64,000 nt of DNA from Hygrocybe punicea (lineage: Eukaryota; Basidiomycota; Agaricomycetes; Agaricales; Hygrophoraceae), in assembly GCA_963556145.1 (NCBI GenBank), contig OY744467.1, positions 124,001 through 188,000 on the forward strand, in the 5' to 3' direction. The translations under genes and the position numbers were made by a program. Below, in pieces: positions 2,491-36,370 of this stretch (within the stretch, counting starts at the first letter, position 1; the number at the start of each line of letters is the position of its first letter). A model generated the notes under the pieces. The model had not been told where the DNA came from, searched no databases, and saw nothing but the letters and a program-made list of their open reading frames with translations.

Positions 2491-3021
2491 CTATGGATCA
2501 ACCTCCATACCACTCTCCTCATCCTGCTCTCCGCCTTGCTTGGTGGACCCGTTACAAATATTGCTGACAGGTGCAGATGGATTGGAAGGACGTGGTTGAC
2601 TATTTGTCAACGGCGATGAGGGAGTCCAAGGAGGCGGCAATGGGGATGGGTACGACGCAGAAACTCGCGTGTATTCCCGCAAGCTTTCTCTCACCAGTCC
2701 ATTATGAGCAAAACATTTCTCGCAGATAAGTGCATATCTGGAAGGGGGCACGTTTGCCTCATGGCCATCATCACCCAATAGAGCGTCCGCGAGTTTGTCG
2801 TACCACTGCTTGCGTGGTGGTGGGAACGGTGGGGGAAGGGGAGAAACTGAAGAAAGACGACATGCATGAGGTATATGATTTGAGTACACCCGGAATGGGT
2901 GGTGTCTGGAAGTCGGACGTGGTAGTCGCTGAGGGGTACTAGGTGGCGGTGATTGCGGCTGAACGGGACTTGCTCGACAGTGGATATGCGAGGTTGGTGA
3001 ATCATCGTATCGTTCAATCAA
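2491..3021 (-). pseudogene. Lunapark-family C-terminal fragment (ER three-way-junction protein)
   Basis: The segment QWYDKLADALLGDD followed by RYALICEKCFAHNGLVRES is the signature of the Lunapark zinc-ribbon domain, which stabilises three-way junctions of the tubular ER. The first zinc pair (CEKC) is present. The second pair, normally about 15 residues further on, is replaced by EYTRVSASYPSPLPPPW, so the ribbon cannot close as in the family. The N-terminal transmembrane hairpins are also missing: upstream there is only a Pro-rich leader starting MIERYDDSP. The tail GMEVDP at the stop is typical of the family's acidic C-terminus. I read this as a truncated, diverged copy. It is unlikely to be the functional gene. 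Confidence 0.65.
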
Positions 3022-3356
3022 GTTTTTGGTAGAGTAACAATTTGTTTTCTTTTTGATCTCTTCCTCCTTGGAACGTTGTCTTCAAAAAAGGCAGCAGGGA
3101 GATACAACTTACCTTTGGCATCGCCGATGTTCGTGTACCATAGCTGCACAATTCGGCAAATGAATAGTATTCTGTAATTTGATCATTCGTTGCATGGGCA
3201 CATGCGCTCGAAAAGATGAACATACACAATTGGGCCTATGATCACAGGCGCAGCTGTGAGTGCCTTCCCAACCTGTCTCCCTGCGGTGTCCACTGTTACG
3301 CGAACATGTGATACGGAGAGTTCCGAACCACCCGGTATAAAGTTTCAGAGTTAGTC

Positions 3357-3638
3357 AGGCTTACTATCATCACCCCACACATCGGACAGGCCCAACTTTC
3401 GGCCACCTCGAATTTCTCACTCAATTCTAACTCAATCCACAGCAAACTGGATACAAGACATATAATACATCATATTGTTATTTTAGAAGTGTTTTTTAGG
3501 TGTAAAATGCAGTTTGTGGTTAGGAGAAAAAAAGGCAGTTGGTCACGCTTTGACAGGTGGGGCTCAAATATGCCACTGTGACATTGTGTGACTGGCTGAA
3601 AGCTGGGCCTGCGATGTGTGGGGTGATGATAGTATGCC
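3357..3638. repeat. inverted repeat, MITE-like (arms about 46 bp)
   Basis: The left arm at 3357-3403 (core ACTATCATCACCCCACACAT) and right arm at 3594-3638 are near-perfect reverse complements with a few mismatches, separated by about 190 bp of AT-rich sequence. No coding capacity is evident between them. Target duplications were not identified, so the assignment to a transposon class is open. Confidence 0.55.
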
Positions 3639-3910
3639 TTTTTCACCCTCAAGTGCACACAGGAGACGGGCGAGGATTTTTGTGATCAAATAATAGGTAA
3701 ATATCCAGTCAACATTATTTTCCACAATAGTTTCACAAGTGAGATGAAAGTATTGTAGAAAATAATGTTATGTATTCATACAGAAAATAGTGCATACAGA
3801 AAATAAATTATTTAGGCCTTTATTGTTTCATTATTGTGTACATGTTTCAGAAAAAAAAAGACCCAAATATTTGAATCAGTTTCTCTTTTCTGAATACATG
3901 TTCATAGTGA

Positions 3911-4335
3911 AACAGACCGTTGGGCCGATGTTCAGTGGGGTATTGTTACCCGTGTTAGACTGTTGGGCCAATGTTCAGTGGGGCTATTGTTACCTGTCTC
4001 AGACCATTGGGCCGATATTGTTACCCATCTCAGACTGTTGGGCCAAGGTTCTCTGGGGGTATTGTTACCCGTCTCAGACCGTTGGGCCGATGTTCTTCAG
4101 GAGCATTGTTACCCATCTCAGACTGTTGGGCCGAGATATTTTGGGGACATTGTTACCCGTCCCAGACTGTTGGGCCAAGATGTGTCAGGGATATTGTTAC
4201 CTGTCTCAGACTGTTGGGCCGAGATATTTCGGGGGAATTGTTACCCATCTCAGATTGTTGGGCTGAGGTGTTTTGGGGGCATTGTTACCCCATCTCAGAC
4301 CGTTGGGCCAGGGTTCTGAGGGGGCATTGTTACTC
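3911..4335. repeat. minisatellite, about 40-60 bp unit, roughly nine copies
   Basis: The phrase TTGGGCCGA ... GGGGCATTGTTACCC ... CAGACTG recurs about nine times with variable spacing. The open frames across it are repetitive (LLPVSDCWA-like) in all three phases, which shows they are by-products of the tandem repeat and not a gene. Confidence 0.8.
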
Positions 4336-4449
4336 ATGCAATATGTTCCAGCCAATGAAATATCATTATATAGGCCTGGTAGCAATGCATTGGAAAATTT
4401 GCGCCAAAATCTGACTTGGTGGGATGGTTTAGAGTCATCATATAACCCA

Positions 4450-5325
4450 TGAGATGTCCTGTGCAAATTTTGAACAAAATTGGTGGACCTGTTTTGGAGC
4501 TATAGTGCAAACAAGGGGTAGAAGGTGGTATGAGGAGCACATTGGCATATCTCAAGAATGCATTCACAAAATGGTCTGGGAGATCATTTCAATGGAATGT
4601 GGTGATCAAATAGCCCCCAGAACAAGTAATTTGAGGTTACTAGCTGCCCTGGAACATGTGCTATACAAGGGGGGTATGAGGAGCACATGGGTATATCTTA
4701 AGAATGAATTCATAAAAGGGTCCGGGAGATGGCTCCATTGAGTTCCCATGGTTAAATAACCCTCAGAACAAGTGATTTCAGATTCCTAGCTGGCCAGGAA
4801 CATGTGCTGTACAAGGGGGGTATGAGGAGCACATGGGCATACCTCAAGAATGCATTCACCAAAGTGTCCGGGAGATTGTCTCATTGGAAAGTGGTGATCA
4901 AATAGCCCCCAGCACAAGTTATTTGAGGTTGCTAGCTGGCTAGGAACCTGTGGTATGTCAGGGGGGTATGAGGAGCACATTCCTATATCTCAAGAATGCA
5001 TTCACCAAAGTGTCCGGGAGATCATTTCAATGGAATGTAGTGATCAAACAACCCCCTGGACAAGTAATTTCAGGTTGCTAGCTGGCCCAGAGCATGTGCT
5101 GTACAAGGGGGGTATGAGGAGCACATTGCTATATCTCAGGAATGCATTCATAAAAGAGTCTGGGAGATGGCCCCATTGTGATCCCATAGTGAAATAACCC
5201 CTAGAACAAGTGATTTCAGATCCCTAGCTGGCCAGGAGCATGTGCTATGCTAGGGGGTATGAGGAGCACCTTGGTGTATCTCAAGAATGCATTCACCAAA
5301 GTATCCGGGAGATCATTTCAATGAT
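4450..5325. repeat. 146-bp tandem satellite, six copies
   Basis: The anchor GGTATGAGGAGCAC occurs at 4527, 4673, 4819, 4965, 5111 and 5256, giving spacings of 146, 146, 146, 146 and 145 bp. Units differ in the segment after GGGAGAT. One type reads CATTTCAATGGAATG, another GGCTCCATTGAGTTCCC and a third TGTCTCATTGGAAAG. Their order suggests a three-unit (about 438 bp) higher-order repeat seen twice. The region is otherwise without coding sense. Confidence 0.85.
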
Positions 5326-5658
5326 AGCGACCAACACAACGAATCTATTAAATTTTGGCCTAGATTCTGTTTACATAATACTTATAACCCTTATCATGAG
5401 ACGCTCATGACCACCATGGACGGCACTAGCTTTTAAATGCGCTTGTGGTAACCCAGTTAGAATCCTAAACTTTAAGTTCTGGATTGGTCTGGTGGGATTA
5501 ACCATATTTATCTCTCTTGTGAAAGTGACAGCATGACAATGAAGTACAATACAATCTGTTGTAATATCATTGTGAATAATGTCCATCGCACCGATCAGAC
5601 GTCAGATAACTACCATTCCAGTGATATATGAGCTGGAGATGTAAAATACAAACAGAGG

Positions 5659-6904
5659 CTAAGACTTCCATACATTCCCCAACCATGCCATGGCTCTCCT
5701 GATGTGAACACCTAACTTGATATGCTTCCCTGCCCCTAAAGCACCACTAATCTGTGTTTCATTTTTGTGACGGTCACTGCTATGGCATTGTGAAGATGTT
5801 GGTGTCAAATCATGACAAGACAGGTTGCCTACCGATACCTTTGAGGTATTCTTCGGTTCTGTCCACCAAGTCGTCACTTGGTTTGATCCATGTTGAGAAA
5901 ACAGGGCATGCATGCATTGAGAAACCAGATTATTTTGATTCGCCAATCCTCTCGTGAAAGCTCGTAACTGGAAGCAATCTCTAAGATTGCATAGATCGAG
6001 TTCAAAGTCTATGGGTCTGCACTGCAGGGACCATTTCAGAGCGTCCAGATTAATTTGGGGTTTTCTCGTGGCAGTCATGAGGAAGAACTGAACTGAGGTC
6101 ATGTTGATGGTGAACAAAAGGACTTGAGGTTCCGCTTCGCTGAGTGAGATCTGGTGATAAGTGCATGCTGCACCAGCCATCATGACCTGGTTGAGTGATG
6201 CCACTTCCGTCGCATCAGGCTTTCCTTCCCCAGCACACACACCAAGCCTTGGTAGCACTGAGAGCGACCGTGTTGCACTCTCTTTCTAGCTGATGGGTTA
6301 TGGACCACACGAAATTGGGCATCTGATACTGGCCCATCAACTCGTCTGGCAGTATAGTGCCATAGATACCATTGGCTAGTTTCATCTTGAAGCTACTGTT
6401 GCGAGGGTTAAATCAGCATCTACCACCAACTGCTGTTAGAACTGGGAGTCACCGTAAATTCCACCCATTCCCACCAGGCTGATTAACATCCAGGACCCTG
6501 TTCCAAACCAACTCTTGCCAATCTGATTCCACCTTGTGATGTTGGTCAAGGAACAATTGCGCTTTGTCACATGTCCAAAGCATGTCACCAAGATCCAAAA
6601 TTGTTATGGAACCAAGTTGACCTGGTGAGATAACTTGCAGTCCATTGCTAATGTCTCTCAAAATAGGATTTTCTCTCCAGAGAGGCAGGCGTCCATGAAG
6701 GATGGGCAAGAGTTGGTCAGGAATGTTCTGAAGCTGATAAATCTTAAAAGAAGTCACGAAGCTGACGCTAAGAACATCGGTGCTCACTATGAGATTCAGA
6801 TCTTCCTCAGTGCATTGAATCATTTCATGAAACAAATCTTGAATGTCTTGTGGAACATTGTGAAATGGTAGTGTTGCGAAGACGGTGCAACTCATGTGAA
6901 GCAA
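5659..6904 (-). pseudogene. unrecognised gene, probably broken
   Basis: Two minus-strand open segments (6904-6449 and 6258-5659) are joined by coding-like sequence (LANGIYGTILPDELMGQYQM at about 6380-6330). The frame changes by one base near 6258, where NTVALS must join VLPRLGVCAGEGKPDA. Features visible are a hydrophobic/acidic N-terminal part (VPQDIQDLFHEMIQCTEEDL) and a later DFELDLCNLRDCFQLRAFTR. I do not recognise the family. The single frame break and the surrounding repeats suggest a decayed copy of a dispersed gene. Confidence 0.35.
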
Positions 6905-7439
6905 CCAAACTTTGAAGGATTCCGGGTTGTTGGCAATGCTTCAAAGTTGAAATATTAGTTAATGTTGCATAAAGAAGCATAAGACTAGTGCTGACTGGCT
7001 AGCGCTTCTGTCACTTTTACCGGAGGCAGTGGAACTAATGGTCAGCCTGGAAGTTGGGATTGAGCTACCTAAGTTATCAGAGCTGGTCAATACTCACAGG
7101 CTGGAAGTTGAATGCAACCTATCTAGGCTAGAAGTTGTGGGGCTAGAAGTTGTGGGGCTACATTGATTAGCTCAGAAGTTTATGAATGCAGAGCAAGATC
7201 AGACGTTGTATTGTATGAGTGATGTAAATGTATCATACACCCAATGCTAACCATACACAATAACTTTACAGTAAGATTGAGGTACTTACTGGTTGGGATT
7301 ATGGTCTTGGCTGAACATTGTTCTGGGAGCACAGGTTGAGGTTGAAGTTTGTTAGGGTTAGGTCCAGAAGGAATTGTTCGCAAAATAAAATGCTTATATA
7401 ATATTAAGCGCCTCAATCCTAAACCCCCATGTCAACCTC

Positions 7440-8893
7440 AACCCCAGTTCATGATGACTTAGAGTGCCTCATGGGAGCCAAGCTCTCCCAGGTTTTGTTG
7501 GATCTAACCAGTTTTTATGATCTCCCAGGAACCACTGCACCTTCATCCTCCAAGGTGGAGCAGATTAGGTTGAGGTCATTGTTGCGCTAAATTGTCCAAC
7601 TAAATGTGCTGAATGAATTCATCCCAGACAGAAACTGGTTCACAAGTGTCTCCAAATGAATGAATCAACAAATGGAGCAGAAGGTTATGATAAAATCATT
7701 AATATAGTGGCACAAGCCATACTCAATCCCAGTTAGTACCTTCAAGCTCCTTCAGATGTTGAACTAACATTGGAACCAAAAGTACCTATCAGGTGGGATG
7801 CTGATAGATGGGCAGATAAGGTCAAAATAGGCATCATCAATGAGGCTGGTGATGAAATGTGCATGGACCGGAATCTAAAGGACTACTATCAACAAGAAGA
7901 GTTGGGTCAAGTAGAGTTACCTGCCATCATCACTGACGTTCATGGACAGATTCTGCTGTGGTATCTTCCAAACATCCTTGGCACAGAGATCAAGGTCAGC
8001 TAACTGCATAACCACACAACAAAAAGGGTTTGGCACTGTTAATAATCAATCAACAGGGTGAGATCCACGATGCCGTCAAGATTATCTCCCCACTCTTGGA
8101 AAAAGCCATGGTTCAAAATCAAGCAAAGTTAGCTGGCCAACAACATGACAAGAATACTGCCAAACATGCCTGGTGGACCTCAGCCTTTCACCCACCACCT
8201 TTTCAACCCAAATTCCAAACTGGGGTGGTTGATTTCTCACCAGAATGGTTTGCAAGGGCACATAATGTGAAGTCACCATGAACCCAGGATTCTATGAAGT
8301 GTCTAACCTGACCACTGGCCCAGTAGACATTGGCTTACCAGTCCAACCCATCGATGAGCACAAAGCACCCACTCGTTTCACCCTTCTTGACCAAGCTGGG
8401 TAACCTACACAACCTCTTAGAAGCCATATTATCCATAACACACCCCCAATTGTGACGTGCCGGGAGTCAGGCGATGGATTTGATTAAAACCCAAGAAAAA
8501 CATCCCAGCGTTTCATCCTGGACAACATCCTACTCTGCAGTGGCCGTTATTGTCAATTGAGAAACAAAACGGCACAGAGATCCGGGAGGAGGGCCTACCT
8601 GCTTTGATGCCTTGGTATCGGCAGGCACACACAGTGGTGCTCTACTCAACGTGCCTGATCTTTTGCTTACACTCAAATATGATGCTGGTATGGTGGTACT
8701 AATTGCAGGTCGCCTCCTGTCTCACAGGGTTAGAAAGTGGACTTGGGGAGAGAGAATATGCTTGGCATATTTCATGAGAGACAATGTTCACGAGTGCTAC
8801 AATGTTGACCAGCCAAATTACCAGAACATCAATGACTATCAATCTATGCTCAGCATGGGTTACGCCTCCAGGCAGAAGGGAGAATTAAGTTAG
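7440..8893 (+). pseudogene. TET/JBP-like 2-oxoglutarate/Fe(II) dioxygenase remnant
   Basis: The coding sense runs in pieces: a degraded 5' part (about 7460-7690), then MEPKVPIRWDADRWADKVKI to LPNILGTEIK (7770-7999). An intron of roughly 58 bp follows, then GEIHDAVKIISPLLEKAM to VVDFSPEWFARAHN (about 8058-8270). The C-terminal core at 8534-8893 is the informative part. HRD (8573-8581) is the HxD iron pair, followed by PTCFDALVSAG, a strand with YDAGMVVLIAGRLL, the distal histidine in LLSHRV, and GERICLAYFMRDNVHE. That order (HxD, Gly-rich strand, H, then an Arg-containing strand) is the double-stranded beta-helix layout of basidiomycete TET/JBP proteins, which oxidise 5-methylcytosine. The frame is broken by TGA at 8558-8560 directly before the HRD motif. 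Family assignment rests on motif memory. Confidence 0.5.
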
Positions 8894-9219: not shown

Positions 9220-11252
9220 CTAACTGTCCTCCATGTCCACATCCTCCATTTTCACTGAAGCCTTCTTGGCTGCATTGGCCAAGTTGATTGCAGCAACCCT
9301 TTTGTCGTACTCGGCCCAAATGGTCTCCGCGAAGTTGAACACCAGTTGCTGCTGAGGTTTCAGTGGGTATTGTGTGAAGAAAATGCAGGGGTAGGCAGGT
9401 CCGACTGCAGTGACGAAGTCGATGTGTTCGGCCCTCAGCCAGCCAGACTTCCACCTGCATGCTGCGCAGTGCAGACGCACAGAGGTGTCATCACACTTGG
9501 CCATGACCAAGACATCCCTTGGCTTGGAAGGGCACTTGGCGTTCATGCACCATCGGAATGTTATGCCAAATGCCCTCAAGCCGGGAACAGTGATTCCCAT
9601 GGAGAATGACTCATCTCTGGTGATGATGGCTTCCGAGGTATGTTTAAGACATGTGAGGTCACCAGTGAAGGACCTTCTCAATGCCTCCTTGATGTCACGA
9701 GTCTGATCCACCACTAACTCCTGAACAAACCGCAAGATCAACATGGACACGAAGGAGGGGATTGTGCTGGCACCGCTGGAGTGGTCCCGAGGGACCTCTC
9801 GGGATCGGGGACGGAATCAGACGGAAAGGTCAAGGGTGGATGGGATAGAGGTCTGTCTACTACATCCGGAAGGGCTACTGACTAAGGGATAGGTCACGTG
9901 ATCATCCAGGCACAACTACTACACCACGGAATCAAAAAATTACGTTGAATTGGCCACTGCATAACCATTCATTTGTGAGTCAACCCGTCCAAACCGATAA
10001 AGCGCTTTGGACATGCCTACGTTCAAACCAGTTCTTCCAGATGGCGGAAGTGGTCGGGAACTGTCATTGCTGGCCCACAAGACAGGAGGATCAGGGCTTT
10101 GAAGCCCACCTTTGGGGATCTCACCAGCTGCAGGAGATCCGGTCCCAAAAATTCTGTGAGAAGCTGGTTTGGATTTAGAGAGGAGCAGGAGAGAGCTATT
10201 AGAAGTTCACCTTTGTGATGGGAACAATGGCAGGATTATGTCCTCCAGCATGTTGCAGGTAACCCGTACTGACATCCAAGTGAGTGTCAATGGTTACGAG
10301 GAAATTTCCTGGGACTGGGCTGGCTCGCAGGAAATTAGTCACCTCAAGTGACATCTTCTTGGGATTGGCCGATTTAGCCTTCATTATAGTGTTGCCTAAA
10401 ACTGGTCGACCAGCTTTTCCTGGTCGACCGGTTTTAGGCAACACTACTTCATTATGAGCTTGGAGATGAGAAGCTGGCAGTCAAGGATCAGTTACTGGGT
10501 TAGATCAACTGGCCAAATAGCTGACTTACGTTGTATGGGGAATTTGTGAACTCCTCTGTCAATAAAGAATTGAGGACATCTGGGAACATATAATTGTTCG
10601 TGTTGCTGTATAGGCTGAGGGTTGTAACAGCAAGCGGCACAAGTTGTTTCTTGTAACATTGTGCAGAAAAACCTGTAATCACATACTGGGTGGGGCTATG
10701 GTAAGTTCACATAAAGCTGGTCAGGTTGAAGCTCACCTGAGGCGGAACTCTGCGTTGTTTGTTGCAGTCGGGGCAGACAAAATTCGTTTTATGGTATGTC
10801 GAAGCCAGTATGCAACCCGTTTGTTTGTCCAATTTGGAGAAATGGACTCGCCGCTCGCATACCGAACACCACTTCAGGTCAATGCCAAAATCTCGGCACA
10901 TGCTACAATACTGCTGCTGAAGTTGGATGTCAGTCTTCAATGCTTTGTCTGCTTCACTCCCAGACAATACCTCATGTTCCCCATAAGATGGAGCCTGGTC
11001 AGACTTCCTAACCAGACCTTGACCAACCGTGTCTTCCAACTGCATCTCATCACATCCAACTTCATCTGTAAAATCGGAGTCGGCCAGTATGATAGGTGCG
11101 ACTGTACCAACTATACTAAGTCCTTGAAGTCGGCGTTGCACGTTGGTGAGAGCAAGGTCCTTGTCAGCCTTCTGCTTGGCCTGCTTTGCTTGCTTCTGAG
11201 CTGAGGCACTTCCCCCAGTACTCTTTTTAGTGTTTTGCGTAGTTCGGGCCAT
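9220..11252 (-). pseudogene. zinc-finger protein of a dispersed agaricomycete family, split by a hAT miniature element
   Basis: The start is ATG at 11252 (MARTTQNTKK). Exon 1 ends at 10737 with a GTGAGC donor. It has a Lys/Gln-rich N-terminus and a cysteine cluster CSMC-CSVC-H-C-H-CPDC (about residues 120-165), resembling a PHD/RING-type zinc site. Later exons read CYKKQLVPLAVTTLSLYSNT, LLISKLIMK + AKSANPKKMSLEV, THLDVSTGYLQHAGG, and FKALILLSCGPAMTVPDHF. The last exon, 9750-9220, has a second Cys group (CMNAKC...CAAC). The His- and SCG-containing segments could form a CHAT/caspase-like dyad, but that is speculation. A 60-bp element with its 8-bp duplication (10387-10454) sits inside the exon LLISKLIMK|AKSANP; removing it restores the frame. 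Around 9775-9935 the match to the gene is poor. Confidence 0.5.
10387..10446. mobile_element. 60-bp palindromic hAT-type miniature element
   Basis: The ends are TAGTGTTGCC and GGCAACACTA, and the whole 60 bp is almost one palindrome (TAGTGTTGCCTAAAAC... paired with ...GTTTTAGGCAACACTA). It is flanked by perfect 8-bp direct repeats CTTCATTA (10379-10386 and 10447-10454), the hAT hallmark. Its terminal ten bases equal those of the 4.9-kb element at 29782-34677, so the two probably use the same transposase. Confidence 0.85.
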
Positions 11253-11365
11253 TGGTTTTGGTTGGAGTTTAAGGGGTGTAGTATTACATAATAGTTGTAT
11301 TGTATTCCAAATCAGTGTTGGAATCCTTACCGCCTTTCTACCCATCAGACATGCCTCCACGCTGA

Positions 11366-12251
11366 ATGTTTCTTTTAGAATGGCCGACTACTAACCCCAC
11401 CGAAAAGGAGTTGATTGGGGCAATGAAGAATCGGGAGTCTGTGGGTTGGACAGAGAAGGTTAACGATGTCCAGATCTACCGCACCAGAACATTGGGCACC
11501 CCATACGTCACGACATTGCCTCTGCACTACAGGAAGTATTGGGACCAGCTGAACTACATCCATGTATATTATGCAGAAGTATACCGGTGGTTAGAAGCCT
11601 GGACTGAGAAAAACGATGAGGAGCCTTTGGTCCAAGATGCTTTGGACATTCACTCACGGCATATTGTGTACTCGGCCAAGGTGAAGCAACAGATATGGGA
11701 TTACATGGAAGGGTCAGAGAGTGCCTTTGACCAACACTTTCGCATTCCGCCCTTTGATGAATGGATCATCAAAGACCAGTTTCAGTTGCACACCGCGAAT
11801 CCTGGGACATTGAAGGAACGATTGAATATGGACCGCTTCAAGCTTGATCCATTTAAACACCTGGAGTCTTTCGGTGAGTGATTTCTTATTGCCGTTGTCT
11901 GCAAAGCCATCTCACAAAGTCGAGATGCCAGAGAACGTGTTTCGAGAGATGATATGTCCAGAGTCGGAGGAAGACCTGGCTGCTTCCATTGAAGGATCAT
12001 TCCAGCACTTTGACTTGGATAAATTGATGAATGGTTTGCTCCGTGACTTGGGCATAGAAAACAAGCAGATAGCTGAGAAGAAGGGAAAAGGAGAGGCGGT
12101 TTCTGGGAAAGGGAAGGAGGTTTTGGGCAGCAAGAAAGGGCAATCTAGCTCGGCCAGACCTGGGGAGAACACAGGGTTAGGTGTGGAGGCAACACTACTT
12201 TGCCCTGCTGCAGTTCCTCTTACAATTGGAAGGCACTGCCCCAGTGCCTGA
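11366..12251 (+). CDS. hypothetical two-exon gene
   Basis: Exon 1 (11366 to about 11874) encodes an aromatic/acidic protein (YWDQLNYIHVYYAEVYRWLE; IPPFDEWIIKDQFQL) and ends at a GTGAGT donor after LESFG. The likely acceptor is near 11907-11910, followed by KPSHKVEMPENVFREMICPE and a helical acidic segment (DLDKLMNGLLRDLGIENKQI). A Lys/Gly/Ser-rich tail runs to the stop at 12251. It is divergent from the neighbouring minus-strand gene (about 110 bp between starts), so the two may share a promoter. No domain was recognised. The upstream ATG in the same frame was not resolved. Confidence 0.45.
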
Positions 12252-12355
12252 AATGGATAGTAAGTTGATATTCCGTTATACACCTGGTATTTGCTGATAG
12301 CATCTCAGCGCATAGTGCTCTGCTGTGTGGTATCTCGTCGCTAGAGAGGCTGAAG

Positions 12356-12853
12356 ATGCCCCCAACGTTGTATATCGACCCCCACATCGTGTTCGGCCAG
12401 ATGCTGGATTTCAGCAACGTCACTCATCCAATCACCCCTCCACCGATTTCTCCTTCGATCATCCCTACAATCCCTCTTTTGATCACCCCCGCGATTCCCC
12501 CTCCGATCACCCCCACAATTCCCCATTCGACCACCCCTACAATCCCCCATCCGACCACCCCTACAATCCCTGATCACCCCCCCGGCCCTTCCGCCTTCGA
12601 CCGCCCTTATCCCGACCACCCCCCGATCACTTGGCCCCCCACTCGGGGACTGTACCGTATTGATATACCCCAGGCGCCTTCATTCTCGAAGATCAGCCCC
12701 GGAAAGAACGTCCTGAATGAGATTCGTTCCCACATCCCGAACTGGTCCCAGTTACTAGATCTTGCTTATGGCCAGTTCAATCATGGATTTCCTCAACGGC
12801 CATTGTGCGGTTTGGAAGAGCGCTTGTTAATAGCGCACCAAGAGATATACTAG
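12356..12853 (+). CDS. Pro/Thr-rich hypothetical protein
   Basis: A frame from 12356 begins MPPTLYIDPHIVFGQMLDFS. It then passes through a low-complexity array of IPTIP/ITPTIPHPTT-like units (about residues 25-85) and ends with a more ordered segment (LNEIRSHIPNWSQLLDLAYG) before the stop at 12853. The repeat also opens the other two plus frames, so only the non-repetitive C-terminal part supports coding. It could be a further exon set of the gene ending at 12251. Confidence 0.3.
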   Translation: MPPTLYIDPHIVFGQMLDFSNVTHPITPPPISPSIIPTIPLLITPAIPPPITPTIPHSTTPTIPHPTTPTIPDHPPGPSAFDRPYPDHPPITWPPTRGLYRIDIPQAPSFSKISPGKNVLNEIRSHIPNWSQLLDLAYGQFNHGFPQRPLCGLEERLLIAHQEIY

Positions 12854-29184: not shown

Positions 29185-29781
29185 ATGGCAACAGAGAAGA
29201 CAGCGTCGACAAGAAACGACAAGGAGAGGTGTGAGACCACCCAGGCTGATAAGGTACGTCTCCAACTGCCTCACCATCCCCAATCCCCGCTAACCAGGGC
29301 AGGACGGCACATAGAAGACGATGCCACCCCACAGCCAACCGGCAGCAGCAGCAGGACGGCGGCAACTACAACCGCTGCCTACTGGCAGAAGCAGCCGGAC
29401 GACAACAATGACAACAACTGCAACCACGACCACTCCCAACTAGCAGCAGCAAGATGACAGCGGCCACCAGCACTGCCAACTGGCCGCAGCAAGGAGGGCA
29501 ATGACAATGGCGGCGGCCACCAGCATTGCCAACTGGCAGCAGCATGCAGGGCAACGACGACGGCGGTGGCCACCAGCATTGCCAACTGGCAGCAGCAAGC
29601 AGGACAATGACGACGTCGACCGCTGTCACCACCGCCAACTGGCGGCAGCAGGACAACAACAACAACAACCCACCACCCACTGGCAGCGACGACCGCGGGA
29701 CGATGTTGGCCATCACCACCACCAACTGAGGCCAGCAGCAGCAGCACCGGGATGTCGCCGTGCCACAATTGGCAGCAGCAG
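29185..29781 (+). repeat. exon-like block plus CAG-rich minisatellite (inverse of 25.3-26.0 kb)
   Basis: ATG at 29185 opens ATEKTASTRNDKERCETTQ up to a GTACGT donor. Pyrimidine-rich sequence with an AG at about 29298 follows, then CAG/CAA-rich units encoding WQQQ-like peptides. The block is interrupted by the hAT insertion at 29782 and resumes at 34686. Whether it was ever a protein gene is unclear. Confidence 0.4.
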
Positions 29782-29929
29782 TAGTGTTGCCACGGCTCGG
29801 CTCCAAAGCCGTTAGCCGTTGAGCCGAACCGGAGTTTAGCCGAGCCGAGCCGTCGGACCAGCTAACGGCTCGGCAGGCTCGGCTTCGCTGTTAAGCCATT
29901 TTTGGACGGCTCTGAACGGCTCGAACCGA

Positions 29930-31395
29930 TGAATATGTCCAAATTAGGCAATCGAACGACGTGTCTGGTTTTCTCATCGTCTCCCTCCCTCTTTGCCAGG
30001 TATTATTCTCTCGTCTCTCCATTTCCTTCTGTCTCAAATCTTTCCGCCGCATTTCTCGCTATCCAACAGCAATCTCATGACCCTGCCCTCAAAGTCACCT
30101 GGGCTCGCGATGTCCTCTTCCTCGTTGATCGCCTACAGCAAAACGCCTCCCCAGACAACCCAATCGGCCCCGCTTACATCCTCGATCCACAGCTCGCCTG
30201 TCTCGTCCAGATCGCAATACCCCTCGTCCTCAACATCGCAAACCTTCAACCCCTTCCAAATACAATCCCCCGTCACGTAGCAGAGGCTATTTACCTCAGG
30301 GCAACATTTGCTGCTTCAGGCGCATATCCCGACTTTGTTCAAATCAACCCAAGATCCACTTTTCGAGACTTCGAGCTCGCATTCCGGCTGTCTGCCCAAC
30401 CAGCAACACCCCCTTTTCCATCCACCAGGACAGCCCGTACCGCGACTTTTTCGACTACCCCCGGCTAGGCTACACCCCCCGCACCTCGTTCACGTCGAAA
30501 ACGAGGGGTCTCCGGCCCTCACATTCCGCTGTCTGCCCAACCAGCAGCCCCCCCCCTTTTTTCATCCCCCGGGATGCCCTACCCGTCTGGTTTTCGATCA
30601 CCCCCGACTAGTGTAAACCCCCCACACCTCGTTCGCGTCGACAACGTGGGGTCGGGGGGTCTCAGGTCTTCGCATTCCGCCTGTCTGCCCAACCAGCAAT
30701 ACCCCCTTTTTCATCCCCCAGGACAGCCCGTCCCGCGACTTTTTCGACCACCCCCGGCTAGGTTACACCCCCCGCACCTCGTTTGAGTTGAATACGAGGG
30801 GTCGGGGGTCTCCGGCCCTCGCATTCCGCTGTCTGCCCAACCAGCAACCCCCCACCTTTTTTCATCCCCTGGGACGCCCCACCCCGTCCGGTTTTCGATC
30901 ACCCCCGACCAGTGTAAACCCCCCGCACCTCGTTCACGTCGATAACGAGGGATCGGGGGGTCTCAGGCGCTCGCGATCTGCCCGTCTGCCCAACCCGCTG
31001 CTAGATCTGGCTATTCCGCCGCGTGGTTCAGGCTCGGCAGGGATTATGAAAACTTCAACGACATTTCTCATGCAAAGGAAAGCTTTGAAACTGGCCTCAA
31101 GCTGGCCATAGAAAGCTGCATATATGTATGTTCCCGCGCTTCTCTCCATCCAATTCACCTCTCATTCTTTGCCAGCGCATGGGAATGGCTCACCTCATGG
31201 GCCAACTCGGTGTTCCAGCCAGCCCAGAACAAGCGGTCCCTCTTCTCCATCGTGCCGCAACATTGGCATCCCTTGATGTACCCCAACCTGCCTATGTCTA
31301 CAGCCTCCTCCTCCTCTCAGAGTTTGCTCATGTCACAATCCCTCCACACCTATTCAGCCCCCTCATCCCCCCTGGATCTACTGCAATTCAAGAAT
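29930..31395 (+). pseudogene. captured SEL1-repeat gene (SKT5/Chs4-like), truncated
   Basis: The block includes RYYSLVSPFP, LSAAFLAIQQQSHDPALKV, RHVAEAIYLRATFAASGAYP, FRDFELA, then (after the 150-bp satellite) SGYSAAWFRLGRDYENFNDI, AKESFETGLKLAIESCIY, a short intron, RMGMAHLMGQLGVPASPEQA, and LLHRAATLASLDVPQPAYVY to PPHLFSPLIPPGSTAIQE. This is the N-terminal half of the SEL1-repeat protein related to Skt5/Chs4, activators of chitin synthase III. The remaining SEL1 repeats are missing. The sequence switches to fatty-acid synthase at about 31393. Exon order and spacing are normal except for the satellite. Confidence 0.75.
30388..30985 (+). repeat. about 150-bp satellite inside the captured SEL1 gene (four units)
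   Basis: The anchor CTGTCTGCCCAACCAGCA starts at 30388, 30529, 30681 and 30829, with a degenerate copy at about 30982 (spacing 141, 152, 148, 153). Each unit also has a CACCTCGTT(C/T)..GTCGA..ACGAGG palindrome-like core. It separates FRDFELA from the next SEL1 exon, so it occupies an intron position. The same family is arrayed in opposite orientation at 35497-36370. Confidence 0.8.
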
Positions 31396-34157
31396 CACGC
31401 GGTCAAGGGCCACGTCTATCGCGAGGGCAGACCGGTCATTGAAGTAGTGTCAGTGTTCCTGTATCATGGTCGTTTCTCTGACTACCAGAATATGTTCGAG
31501 CCAACAGAAGAGCCCGATTATATGGTTGATCTCGCGGATGACGCAGCTGTTGGAGTATTACAATCTAAGGAATGGTTTGAGTGGGACGACGGCACGAAGC
31601 CACTCCTCGCAGGAACCCCTCTTATATTCCGAATCCATTGGCAAGTGTCCTTCAAGGACAAGATTTCTTACCGCGATGTTTCAGTATCAGGTGACGCCTT
31701 TGTTCGCGATCGGCTGAAATGCCTCGTCAAGGTCGGCTCCGTGGATTTCCAACAGGACAATTGCAAGGGCAATCCTGTTCTTGCCTACCTACAGCGTCAT
31801 GGCAGTCCCCAAGGGCTCCCGACTCTTTTGGCAAATGACGGATACACTCCAGCCAGCGCTGGAATGGTTTTCAATGCACCTCTCACGAACGGACCCCGTC
31901 ATTTTGGGAGATTTCAATCCTATTCATGTTAATCCTTACTTCTCCGACTATGCCTCCCTCCCCGCTACTATTACCCACGGTCTATGGTCCAGTGCGGCCA
32001 CCCGCCGTTACGTCGAGAACATCGTTGCGCGTGGCCACCCTGATCGTGTGATAGCGTTAGTTTTTTTTTTCCCTCCCCGTACGACTGTATACTGATTGAT
32101 GTGGTCCATTGTAGCTATAATGTCACCTTCGTCGGCATGGTCTTACCTGGTGATGAGTTGACCGTTACAATCAGGCACGTTGGAATGCGTGACGGAAATA
32201 TCGTGGTCAAAATCCAGACAGCCAATTCTCGCGGCGAAAAAGTTCTCGAAGGCTCGGCTGAGGTTGCACAGCCTACCACATATTCACGGGTCAAGGTTCG
32301 CAGGAGCCCGGCATGGGCATGGATCTATACAATAGTTCACCAGCAGCTCGTGCCGTTTGGGAAGACGACTCGGTCAGCCATTCCCGGGCTATCCTTTGTC
32401 ACGCCAAGAATGGAAAAGAGATTTACTATCAATTCGAAGATGTGCCGGCTGTGCCGGCTGCAGGTGAACCGGTTCTTGAGGCTGCACCGCCTGCATCCAT
32501 CCCTTCTCCTGTTGTTCCAGTGTCTGCACCTCCTTCCACGGCCGCCAGTATTGAAGATGTTCCCATGAAAGCCATCGAAATCCTGATCGTGGTCATTGCC
32601 CAAAAGCTCAAAAAGAAGGTTGATGAGGTTCCCCTTTCCAAGACCATCAAGGACCTGGTCGGCGGGAAGTCGACTCTTCAAAATGAGATTCTTGGCGATC
32701 TTCAGTTGGAGTTCACATCTGCGCCTGAGAAAAGCGAAGAACTGCCGTTTGAGGAATTGGGATCCGCGCTGGGTGTAGGATTTTCTGGAAATACTCAAAT
32801 GGAATGGTGTCACGGCTGATCAGTGGCAAGATGCCTGGCGGATTCAATGCTTCTACCATCAAGTCCCACCTCTCCAAGGCTTGGGGTCTTGGACTGTCTC
32901 GATCGGATGGCGTCCTATTACTTGGTTCCACAATGGAACCCGCAAAGCGACTTGGCTCTGAAGTCGAGGCGAAGGTGTTGCTGGATAGTGTTGTTGCCGT
33001 CTATGCCCAACGATCGGGTATCTCTTTATCAGCTGGAAGCGCTGCGGGGGGCGCCGGATCAGGAACCACCATGAATAGTGAAGAATTCCTGAAGTTCCAG
33101 GCCGAGCAAGAACAATTTGCAGCTCAGCATGTTGAGCTGTACATGCGCTATCTCAAACGTGATTCTCGTTCCAGTGAAATTGCGTTCGATAAAGAGAAGG
33201 CCAATTCGGCTGCTCTCCAGGCAAGGTTGGACAGCATTGCCAGAGAGCACGGCGACACATACATTGATGGTATTCAGCCGATATTTGATCCCCTTAAAGC
33301 ACGTCATTTCGACTCCTCGTGGAATTGGGCCCGTCAAGACGACTTACTCATGTACTACGACGTCATTTTTGGACGACTCGCCACTGTAGATCGCGATATT
33401 ACTGCGCGTGCTATCTCTCTTCTCAATCACGCCGACTCCGAGCTACTCAAGTACATGCAGTACAACATTGGCCAGTGTGATGAAAAGCGGGGCGAAAACT
33501 CCAAACTTGCCAAAGAGTTCGGCCAGCAACTCCTCGAGAACACTCGAGAGGTCATCGACAAGCCGCCTGTATATAAGGATGGTAAGCTGCTGCCTAATGT
33601 CCACGTCGTCTATGTTTTCATATGATTTCTTCTCAAAGTAACTTTCCCCACGGCGCCTCACACTGAAGTCACAGCCAAGGGTGATATAGTATACTCCGAG
33701 GTCGTTCGAGAGAATGTCCGCAAACTGGAGGCCTACGTGGAAGAAATGGCAAGTGGCGACACTGTGTCTGGCGCTGTAAATATCCAGAAAGTTCAGGACG
33801 ACGTTCTCAAGCTCTGGACGGTTGTGAAATCGCAACCGGGCATCAGCCTAGAGCAAAAGAATCATATCAAGGCGCTTTACGAAGGCGTGGTCCCTTCTCT
33901 TCGAAAGGGTCCTGACACTCGTAGTCGCGTTGCGTCTCAATTCCTTCACCCTCAGATTACCAGTGTTGCGTCTGTCTCTGTGACAAAATTCCTCTCCTCC
34001 ATTTGAAACGCAAAGTCGGCACGAATTGGGAGTACAGTAATAACTTGACCAGTGTCTACTTGAATATCCTTCACGAGATCGCTACTTCCGGCACCACATT
34101 CAAGGACAAGAACGCTCTCTTGACTGGGGTTGGGAAAGGCTCCATCGGCGTAGAGGA
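31394..34157 (+). pseudogene. captured fatty-acid-synthase pieces (dehydratase/MPT end of beta, ACP region of alpha)
   Basis: Part 1 (31394-32365): FKNHAVKGHVYREGRPVIEV, SYRDVSVSGDAFVRDRL, GDFNPIHVNPYFSDYASLPA, an intron at 32056-32114, FVGMVLPGDELTV. This is the MaoC-like dehydratase and the start of the malonyl/palmitoyl transferase (GMGMDLYNSSPAARAVWE), with frameshifts. The chain then jumps to alpha-subunit sequence (GKEIYYQFED). The double ACP-like domain follows (SIEDVPMKAIEILIVVIAQ, LVGGKSTLQNEILGDLQLEF), then GKMPGGFNASTIKSHLSKAW and AVYAQRSGISLSAGSA. An intron at 33582-33638 precedes the linker TNWEYSNNLTSVYLNILHEI and GVGKGSIGVE, where it ends at the ketoreductase start. Most of MPT and all of KR/KS are absent, so it is a non-functional composite. 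Confidence 0.85.
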
Positions 34158-34500
34158 GGTTGTCGTTGAGTTTCATCTTTCTTGATCGTAGGACCACTAC
34201 CGCCTGTGATCCACCCTGCGGATGTACCCTTGACAGAGACCACGACGGTCGAATTATTGTCAGACACAAAAACATGGCCGCCTAATCCGTCAGCGTCAGT
34301 TTCCCATCCAAACGGGTAGTCCTAAGAAAAGAAAGAAAAAAAAGTTAAACGAAAATGACAACGACGACGATAGATACGTTACAGCGACCTACCGCGTGCC
34401 AACCGGTGCCCAAGTCATACGATTCCTGATGGCCTGTCTCGTAGTACGAATTAAAAGTCATCTTGGCGAGCTCCAGCAGTGTTTCGTGGCGGAATCCACA
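34155..34500 (-). pseudogene. captured ATG15 (autophagy lipase) piece
   Basis: On the minus strand: LLELAKMTFNSYYETGHQES, YDLGTGWHA, an intron at 34392-34322 (GTAGGT...TTAG), DYPFGWETDADGLGGHVFVS, DNNSTVVVSVKGTSAGWITG and GSGPTIKKD. One shifted base follows, then KLNDNLLYA. This corresponds to the luminal region of Atg15 before the catalytic GHSLG, which is not included. Atg15 degrades autophagic bodies in the vacuole. It directly abuts the FAS piece in opposite orientation at about 34155. Confidence 0.75.
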
Positions 34501-35496
34501 GCCGTCTCCATGTTAGGACATTCTTTCCTTTTATGGTATATGAACCATGGCTAAGCCGAAGCAAAGCCATCTCAGGTAAAAGCCGTTCCTGAGTTGATGG
34601 CTTGGCTCAGCTTGTAAGCCAAATATGGTGTAGCCGCCATCAGCCGAGCCGAGCCGAGCCGAGCCGTGGCAACACTAAGCAGCAGTGGGGCGACAACCAT
34701 GACCACAAGCGCAACCACCCACTGGCGGCAGCGTCGAGACAATGATGACGGTTGCAACGAAAGACTAGCAAGGACGATGGGGCTTCAACTTATTGTCTAT
34801 AATTAATTATTGATTCAATCTTAAGCAACTTTTTTTTTAAAAAGGACTTTAGCTAGAAAAAAGTGTTGAAAGGTAATTCAAAAAAGGTATGTCAAAAGGT
34901 ATGACAAGTGAAGAAAAAAGAGTCAAAAGGTATGAGAGAAAAAAAAGTACAAGAACTTTAAACTTTTTCAAGCTGCTCAACTTGAAGTACTGAAAGGTGG
35001 AAAAGCCTGAAAAATGTTTGCAAAAAAGTTGAGAAAAAAGGTCAAGGTGTCAAAAGTGCAAAAAAAGGGGGATGTAAATTTACTGATGAGTCTATCTCAA
35101 CGTTCACCGTCCTTAAAGAGTACGTGATCTTGTTGGATTAGATCAGAATCTCATACTGAGTGTGTCTTACCGTTCGCCGCGTACGTGATCCAGTGGGGTC
35201 GAGCATCAGTAAAACAAGGGTCATCTTAGTTCGTCTTACTAAGTTCTTAATTTGTCTTAGTGGTGAGTTAAGACAGATTAAGATGAATTAAGACGAGATT
35301 TTGGTAAGACGAAATAAGACGAAATAAGAAGGTCCTTCCACTTACTTTTTCTTACTCGGTCTTATTTCTTCTTATACATTCTTAATGTCTTCTTATATGT
35401 TCTTAGTTTTCTCTTATATTCTTAGTTTTCTCGGATTTTGGACAGAATAAAAACAAATGAATTAATTTAATACTACAGAGAATGCTATACATAAGG

Positions 35497-36370
35497 TTGG
35501 GCCAAGAGACGGCAGGGCAACACGCTAGGACCCCCCAGCCTCTCGTCTTCAACGGAAACAAGCTGGGGGTGGTTAAAAACAGGGCGTGGTGGTTGAAAAA
35601 GGTGGGGTGGCAGTGGTTGGGCAGATGGCAGGAGCGCGAGGTCCTGACACCGCCCGAAGTCTCGTTTTCAACAGAAACGAGGCGCTGGGGGTGTACACTG
35701 GCCGGGGGTGGCTGCAAACGGCGCGGGAGGGGGTGTCCTGTTGGTAGAAAAAAGAGGGGTGAGCTGGTTGGGCAGAAGATGGGAACGCGAAGTCCTGAGA
35801 CCCCCCAACATCTCATTTTCGACAGAAACGAGGCGCGGGGGGTGTACACTAGCCGGGGATGTCCACAAACGGCACGGGAGAAGGTGTCCTGTTGGTAGAA
35901 AAAAGTGAGGTGGGGTGGTTGGGCAGAAGACGGTAACGCGAGGTCCTGGGACCCCCCAACGTCTCATTTTCAACGGAAACGAGGCGCAGGGGGTGTACAC
36001 CAGCCGGGGATGGCCATAAATGGCGCAGGAGAAGGTGTCCTGTTGGTAGAAAAAAGGGGGTGAGCTGGTTGGGCAGAAGACGGGAACGCGAGGTCCTGAG
36101 ACCCCCCGACGTCTCGTTTTCAACGGAAACGAGGCGCCGGAGGTATACACTAACCGGGGATGGCCGCAAACGGCGCGGGAGAAGGTATCCTGTTGGTAGA
36201 AAAAAGTGAGGTGGGGTGGTTGGGCAGAAGACGGTAACGCGAGGTCCTGAGACCCCCGACAGCTCGTTTCCAACGGAAACGGAGACACGGGGGTGTACTT
36301 GAGTTGGGGGTGGTCGAAAACCGCAGGGGAAGGCTTGTATTGGGTGTTGAAAAACTGGGGGGTGGGTCAG
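35497..36370 (-). repeat. 150-bp satellite array, opposite orientation
   Basis: The anchor GGTTGGGCAGA recurs at about 35617, 35769, 35918, 36069 and 36219, with a diverged copy at 35497; spacing is 149-152 bp. Each unit has CTCGTTTTCAACGGAAACGAG, a near-perfect palindrome. It is the same family as 30388-30985 but inverted. Long open frames on the minus strand are created by the repeat. Confidence 0.8.

Follow-up and report, generated by a model that had tools for sequence, protein, structure and literature searches.

A 4.9-kb element with hAT-type ends

The window, a stretch of 64,000 nucleotides of Hygrocybe punicea contig OY744467.1, contains at positions 29782-34677 an element of 4,896 bp. 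Terminal inverted repeats (TIRs) and a target site duplication (TSD) delimit it, and pieces of host genes lie between its ends together with a minisatellite array, a feature that had been left out of an earlier note on this DNA. The following features were assigned:

29774..29781, no strand: left TSD AGCAGCAG, exact match to 34678-34685
29782..29803, plus strand: left TIR, 22 bp, 100% complementary to 34656-34677
29804..30006, plus strand: left subterminal region, common to L043, L044, L045 and L046 (alignments from 29782)
30007..30380, plus strand: Sel1-repeat gene piece, first part, 96.0% to parent L052 (C1)
30376..30995, no strand: 151-bp minisatellite array, 4.2 copies, splitting the Sel1 piece and missing from L052, L044 and L049
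30997..31400, plus strand: Sel1-repeat gene piece, second part, 97.3% to parent L052 (C1)
31401..32364, plus strand: fatty acid synthase (FAS) piece 1 (beta region), 95.7% to parent L040 (C34), intron 32056-32114 retained
32363..34154, plus strand: FAS piece 2 (alpha: ACP, helical domain, start of KR; assigned with Pfam), 94.7% to L040, intron 33582-33638 retained
34152..34490, minus strand: ATG15 piece, inverted, 95% to parent L054 (C2), intron 34392-34322 retained
34515..34655, plus strand: right subterminal region, common to the copies U and E2 and to L064
34656..34677, minus strand: right TIR, 22 bp, pairing with the left TIR (100%)
34678..34685, no strand: right TSD AGCAGCAG, exact match to 29774-29781

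The short TIRs (22 bp) and the 8-bp TSD are those of a hAT element, and copies with the same ends and content (E1, with domain PF05699, and two loci on C7) contain a transposase. The exact 22-bp end is rare and was found at 12 sites in the genome, two of which are the ends of the window element. As the left flank is a CAG-rich repeat, the AGCAGCAG duplication taken alone is weak evidence; the same eight bases occur nine times in the window, three of them within 29401-29781. The two flanks joined without the element aligned, across their joint and without a break, to a repeat unit upstream with a score of 60 (best score in 100 single-base shuffles, 44). With this result, the perfect TIRs and the exact duplication, the proposed hAT-type ends and perfect 8-bp TSD were verified.

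A shorter version of the end, the 10-bp sequence TAGTGTTGCC, is present at 1613 (+) and 1617 (-) genome sites compared with 50 and 54 for the reversed pattern. Among the first 100 sites, all on C1, neighbouring pairs at most 6 kb apart were arranged +/- in 29 cases and -/+ in 8. The search for further elements with such ends and 8-bp duplications, which had been proposed as a check, gave at least five copies with exact TSDs. Copies with the 10-bp end and an exact 8-bp TSD measure 2,060 bp (L046, which also carries a SEL1 piece), 499 bp (L043), 1,262 bp (L051) and 201 bp (L007), and the window itself contains another (10387-10446), a miniature element of 60 bp that has TAGTGTTGCC ends and the exact 8-bp TSD CTTCATTA. 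The TSD of L003, a copy of the same end type, has one mismatch. A lone TAGTGTTGCC-type end was also noticed at 12188-12197 of the window. Several further hAT copies (C1:2255999-2256292 and others) have a 722-aa open frame and appear to form a separate family with recent activity; one of these copies and the TAGTGTTGCC end at C1:2256570 are about 0.3 kb apart.

No transposase domain was detected in the eight window ORFs scanned with Pfam and none of the six transposase pieces of E1 matched the window, as expected from the earlier claim that the element contains no transposase. The window element is therefore not an autonomous hAT. TIRs, TSD and host gene pieces without a transposase give it the build of a Pack-type hAT, a term defined in plants and used here for the likeness in build.

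Parental genes of the captured pieces

The parental genes, which the earlier note had suggested looking for, were identified on three contigs (the Sel1-repeat gene L052 on C1, the FAS gene L040 on C34 and the ATG15 gene L054 on C2) and look intact in the stretches read, which bears out the proposed content of three host genes. For FAS, Pfam analysis of the eight window ORFs detected the beta insertion domain, MaoC, the beginning of the acyl transferase, the alpha ACP and FAS_I_H. The Sel1 score in the window was weak (20.3 bits, cut-off 30.7) compared with 71.9 bits (E=4.1e-20) for the parent, and the piece is identified by its match to L052, whose protein has Sel1 repeats. Pfam alone placed L054 below the cut-off and a search of solved structures gave no match for it; the L054 protein is 61-63% identical to its best matches named lipase ATG15, in support of the inverted ATG15 piece. 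Most of the named matches belong to agaricomycetes.

FAS beta and alpha pieces had both been predicted and both are present according to Pfam and to the L040 alignment. One correction is needed, since a single parental ORF in L040 covers the last portion of beta as well as the alpha ACP, so that the two pieces derive from one fused gene; separate FAS1 and FAS2 sources were ruled out for this reason. Approximately 1.45 kb of L040 is absent between pieces 1 and 2. The alignments of the window to its parents continue through all three named introns. Parent and element alike have the introns, so that genomic DNA must have been the source, in agreement with the earlier conclusion that capture was from DNA. 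The gene pieces in the window element are probably passengers without protein function.

The minisatellite is shared with E1, in which the array is longer, and with L043, L045, L046 and L047. Outside the element, 0.9 kb from its right end, a 151-bp repeat again forms an array (35590-36298 of the window; 4.7 copies); this second array is inverted and about 71% like the one inside the element. A centromeric origin of the repeat was suspected from the clustering of its best matches per contig; it is not claimed here because scoring covered 40 of the 465 candidates and because the window, too, has short arrays, as at 35590-36298.

Related copies in the genome

Two stretches of C2, E1 and U, have gene pieces, order and joints in common with the window element. 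E1 (C2:2834001 onward) is collinear with window 29831-34152 at E1 2926-7446, and its FAS piece is followed by a transposase gene, a segment X and then FAS again, inverted and ending at parental base 2010. The stretch U (C2:2788301-2791800, minus strand) was examined as a test and contains inverted FAS from parental base 2009 and after it, just as the window does, ATG15 and the right end, with window 34152-34677 matching U 2432-2940. The joints SEL1|FAS and FAS|FAS are common to the window and E1, the first of them also to L044, and the joint between ATG15 and the right end is common to the window and U. Because their FAS copies end at neighbouring parental bases, E1 and U are read as the halves of one element, probably of about 13.9 kb (insertions in both counted) and parted by an inversion. 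The probable inversion spans about 57 kb, and its breakpoints, at C2:2,791,407 and C2:2,848,237 (L063, L059/L058), would have cut the element between parental FAS bases 2009 and 2010. A complete large copy was not found among the copies examined, and E1 lacks both its left end (the match begins at window 29831) and its right end.

Transposase evidence in E1 comes from its last exon, in which the hAT dimerisation domain PF05699 was detected with 45.1 bits (cut-off 21.4). Pfam found nothing over the cut-off in the other E1 transposase exons or in the L045 pieces; the remaining exons were assigned by eye, and only the last has Pfam support. All six E1 pieces recur in E2 and two of the six in L045. 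At two loci on C7 (C7:3260636 onward, which is L045, and C7:399371 downward) the exact 22-bp end is joined to SEL1 and to a transposase of this clade, with matching order and orientation. In a search with the last E1 exon, which scored 150 of the 314 candidates, E1 and E2 were closest and the next reached at most 74%, many without stops. Judging from these sequences, a related element could supply transposase for the window copy.

E2 (C2:983451 upward) has, one after the other, FAS, transposase, inverted FAS, ATG15 and the right end. It gave no SEL1 match in the genome search, its FAS piece is longer and about 500 bp separate ATG15 from the right end; E2 is therefore a cousin and not the parent. 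That E2 is intact over 19.1 kb, with the TIR at C2:1002549 as its end, is not claimed here, the flank being GTGCAATA at that TIR and CTGCAAGG on the right. L056 (3.6 kb between TAGTGTTGCC ends) was discarded as a partner element, with one of the six transposase pieces matching at 27% and flanks that, by eye, have no TSD. The right end of E2 (L055 1-150) sits inside a transposase exon that belongs to another hAT. This joint recurs on C35 (L064; 91% over 1,063 bp), and the nested unit was therefore duplicated as a whole.

Further copies share the pieces and joints of the window element in part (E2 and L043-L049). The 3' part of SEL1 has 13 genome matches: besides the window and the parent they comprise a scrap of 38 bp, a copy at 74%, perhaps a paralogue, and nine more, among them E1. 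ATG15 is found at six places (the window, the parent, U, E2, L064 on C35 and C2:1212309). Among the SEL1 copies L043, L044, L045, L046, L047 and L049, the minisatellite and the FAS pieces form a mosaic with no simple order of gain. The mosaic of the minisatellite against the SEL1|FAS joint requires loss or exchange between copies. Segment X (1.3 kb), which is bordered by an inverted scrap of FAS of 85 bp, lies in opposite orientation in two elements and was located as follows:

L039 7574-10000: segment X
L058 (E1 11353-12651): segment X
L045 6392-7685: segment X

Divergence of the window element, its sister and the parental genes

Over 3797 aligned columns, 88 differences from the parents are common to the window and its sister, 31 are found only in the window, 53 only in the sister, and at one column all differ. 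The 88 shared derived differences place the captures before the split of window and sister. FAS piece 2 lost its frame before the window and E1 separated, the two having deletions of 10, 9, 21 and 1 bp in common; a 41-bp 'insertion' and the first 1-bp 'deletion' in this alignment are effects of the cut point and were left uncounted. At codon positions 1/2/3, changes in FAS piece 2 number 3/7/8 in the window only, 12/6/8 in E1 only and 8/3/22 in both, the last being as expected if many of the shared changes arose in the constrained parent gene. RIP was considered; in this piece, 92 of the 121 differences of E2 and 28 of the 55 of the window are changes of the C-to-T type.

Probable origin of the window element by internal deletion

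The window element corresponds to E1 2926-7446 joined to U 2432-2940, without 8,829 bp of that arrangement, transposase included. It is likely an internal-deletion derivative of a hAT of about 14 kb that held these gene pieces beside its own transposase gene. At the FAS|ATG15 joint (34152-34154), where the pieces overlap by AGA, the parental FAS and ATG15 sequences share these 3 bp. E1 differs at the deletion site and is therefore not the direct parent. E1 and U would once have been a single element, later parted by the inversion; a sister of this element would have lost approximately 8.8 kb between FAS and ATG15 sites sharing 3 bp. Such a deletion would have put the FAS piece against the ATG15 piece, as in the step from Ac to Ds, and the short form may then have inserted at the window locus, moved by the transposase of a related element. 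As pieces and joints are common to E1 and U, the captures took place in an ancestor, before the window element existed, and this ancestor probably encoded a transposase.

The earlier note had regarded the element as a transposase-less hAT that captured the three pieces itself in its present form. Ends, TSD and pieces are indeed present and a transposase is absent, but the joints and the 88 derived differences shared with E1/U would need an independent origin and E1 holds a transposase right beside the pieces, so that self-capture is highly improbable. Fusion of a SEL1-FAS element with an ATG15 element by recombination between copies, instead of an internal deletion, is unlikely to a lesser degree. 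It draws on SEL1 copies without ATG15 in the stretch read (L043, L045, L046, L047), on ATG15 and right ends without SEL1 matches in E2 and L064, and on the spread of the minisatellite and FAS mosaic; against it, the neighbouring parental bases of E1 and U put SEL1, FAS and ATG15 together in a single element that is older than the window copy. That chance inverted repeats surround a segmental duplication, or that the assembly is at fault, has a negligible probability: the repetitive left flank would allow for it, but the perfect 22-bp ends, the exact TSD, a flank joint that matches a repeat unit and the five exact-TSD copies of this end type all speak against it. Internal deletion of a larger, gene-carrying hAT accordingly remains the preferred origin.

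Acquisition of the gene pieces

How the genes were first captured is a separate matter, on which the best-read joints (FAS|FAS and FAS|ATG15) have no bearing as they are deletion joints. The genes may first have been acquired during the repair of excision gaps, if unrelated DNA of the chromosomes served as the template to be copied. Such repair copying agrees with the three source contigs, the retained introns and the occurrence of both orientations, and it is the least certain part of the scheme. Alternatively, the outer ends of neighbouring or nested hAT copies could have carried off the DNA between them. This alternative concerns the capture step only and is compatible with the internal deletion proposed for the window element. 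The nested right end of E2 in an exon of another hAT, with its joint recurring on C35 (L064), is an arrangement of this kind, and tandem Pack-CACTA copies are proposed as a route in plants in the available part of PMC13317346; pieces from three contigs in both orientations would, on the other hand, need several such events, and transfer by outer ends is rather doubtful as the route.

A broader picture is tentatively put forward, with a chance of being correct that comes close to even. An agaricomycete hAT lineage would act as an accretor of DNA, its transposase-bearing copies gathering pieces with introns, in either orientation, from several unlinked housekeeping genes together with a minisatellite, exchanging parts between copies and shedding short derivatives that spread the shuffled pieces through the genome. 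Several states can be compared in one genome, namely SEL1 and minisatellite, in which no FAS was found (L043, L045, L046, L047), SEL1 and FAS without minisatellite (L044, L049), SEL1, minisatellite, FAS and transposase (E1), FAS, transposase and ATG15 (E2), and the trimmed form in the window. Because the parents are present with their flanking sequence, the limits of capture can be mapped.

Comparison with known gene-capturing transposons

In the Ac/Ds system, a hAT with its own transposase is shortened by internal deletion, and the product is mobile only in trans. Ac and Ds are plant elements, and the deleted parent proposed here differs in that it also carried captured genes. Plant Pack-hAT or Pack-TYPE elements, as far as the accessible text of PMC8903248 describes them, are alike in hAT ends, an 8-nt TSD and host gene pieces without a transposase. 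Apart from its fungal host, the element in the window is unlike them in having a transposase-bearing relative that carries the same pieces, and the short form is for this reason a derivative. How cut-and-paste transposons take up genes is unsettled, and a 2026 plant review states, in the part available, that an undiscovered mechanism may remain (PMC13317346).

Among mushrooms, the Helitrons of Pleurotus ostreatus are DNA transposons with one to four extra genes; they are rolling-circle elements without a TSD, and in the excerpt of that report the intact elements are without P. ostreatus gene fragments (PMC4289320). In Pyrenophora tritici-repentis, hAT capture of histone H3 is described, in the section at hand, as the first fungal case, again with a host gene between the ends of a fungal hAT and with a 5.6-kb form with full transposase beside a 2.3-kb short form that arose by short-repeat recombination (PMC3538342). 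It involves one gene and is called transcript capture in the available text of PMC6710886, unlike the three genes, introns, both orientations and minisatellite found here. The hAT-H3 elements of Pseudocercospora fijiensis and relatives resemble the present family in their TIRs (20 bp there), 8-bp TSDs, a hAT domain, captured host sequence and decayed copies, and differ, according to the same partial source, in a single intron-free gene (transcript or retrocopy), hundreds of RIP-altered copies and their ascomycete hosts (PMC6710886). With captured genes other than histone H3 and with retained introns, the window element is not a case of hAT-H3 transduplication.

Multi-gene capture of genomic DNA by a fungal hAT was not found among the best-ranked results of the literature searched, a coverage that mostly excludes subscription journals, and in the accessible part of PMC4994206 transduplication is mentioned in the reference list only. 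The earlier remark that such capture is little described in fungi holds insofar as the fungal literature is thin, but hAT capture of histone H3 has been published for ascomycetes. A gene-carrying hAT with a shortened derivative is thus not new in kind. What is new here is that pieces of several genes were taken up as intron-containing genomic DNA, lie in both orientations and are accompanied by a minisatellite, which widens fungal hAT capture from one histone gene of ascomycetes to several genes in an agaricomycete.
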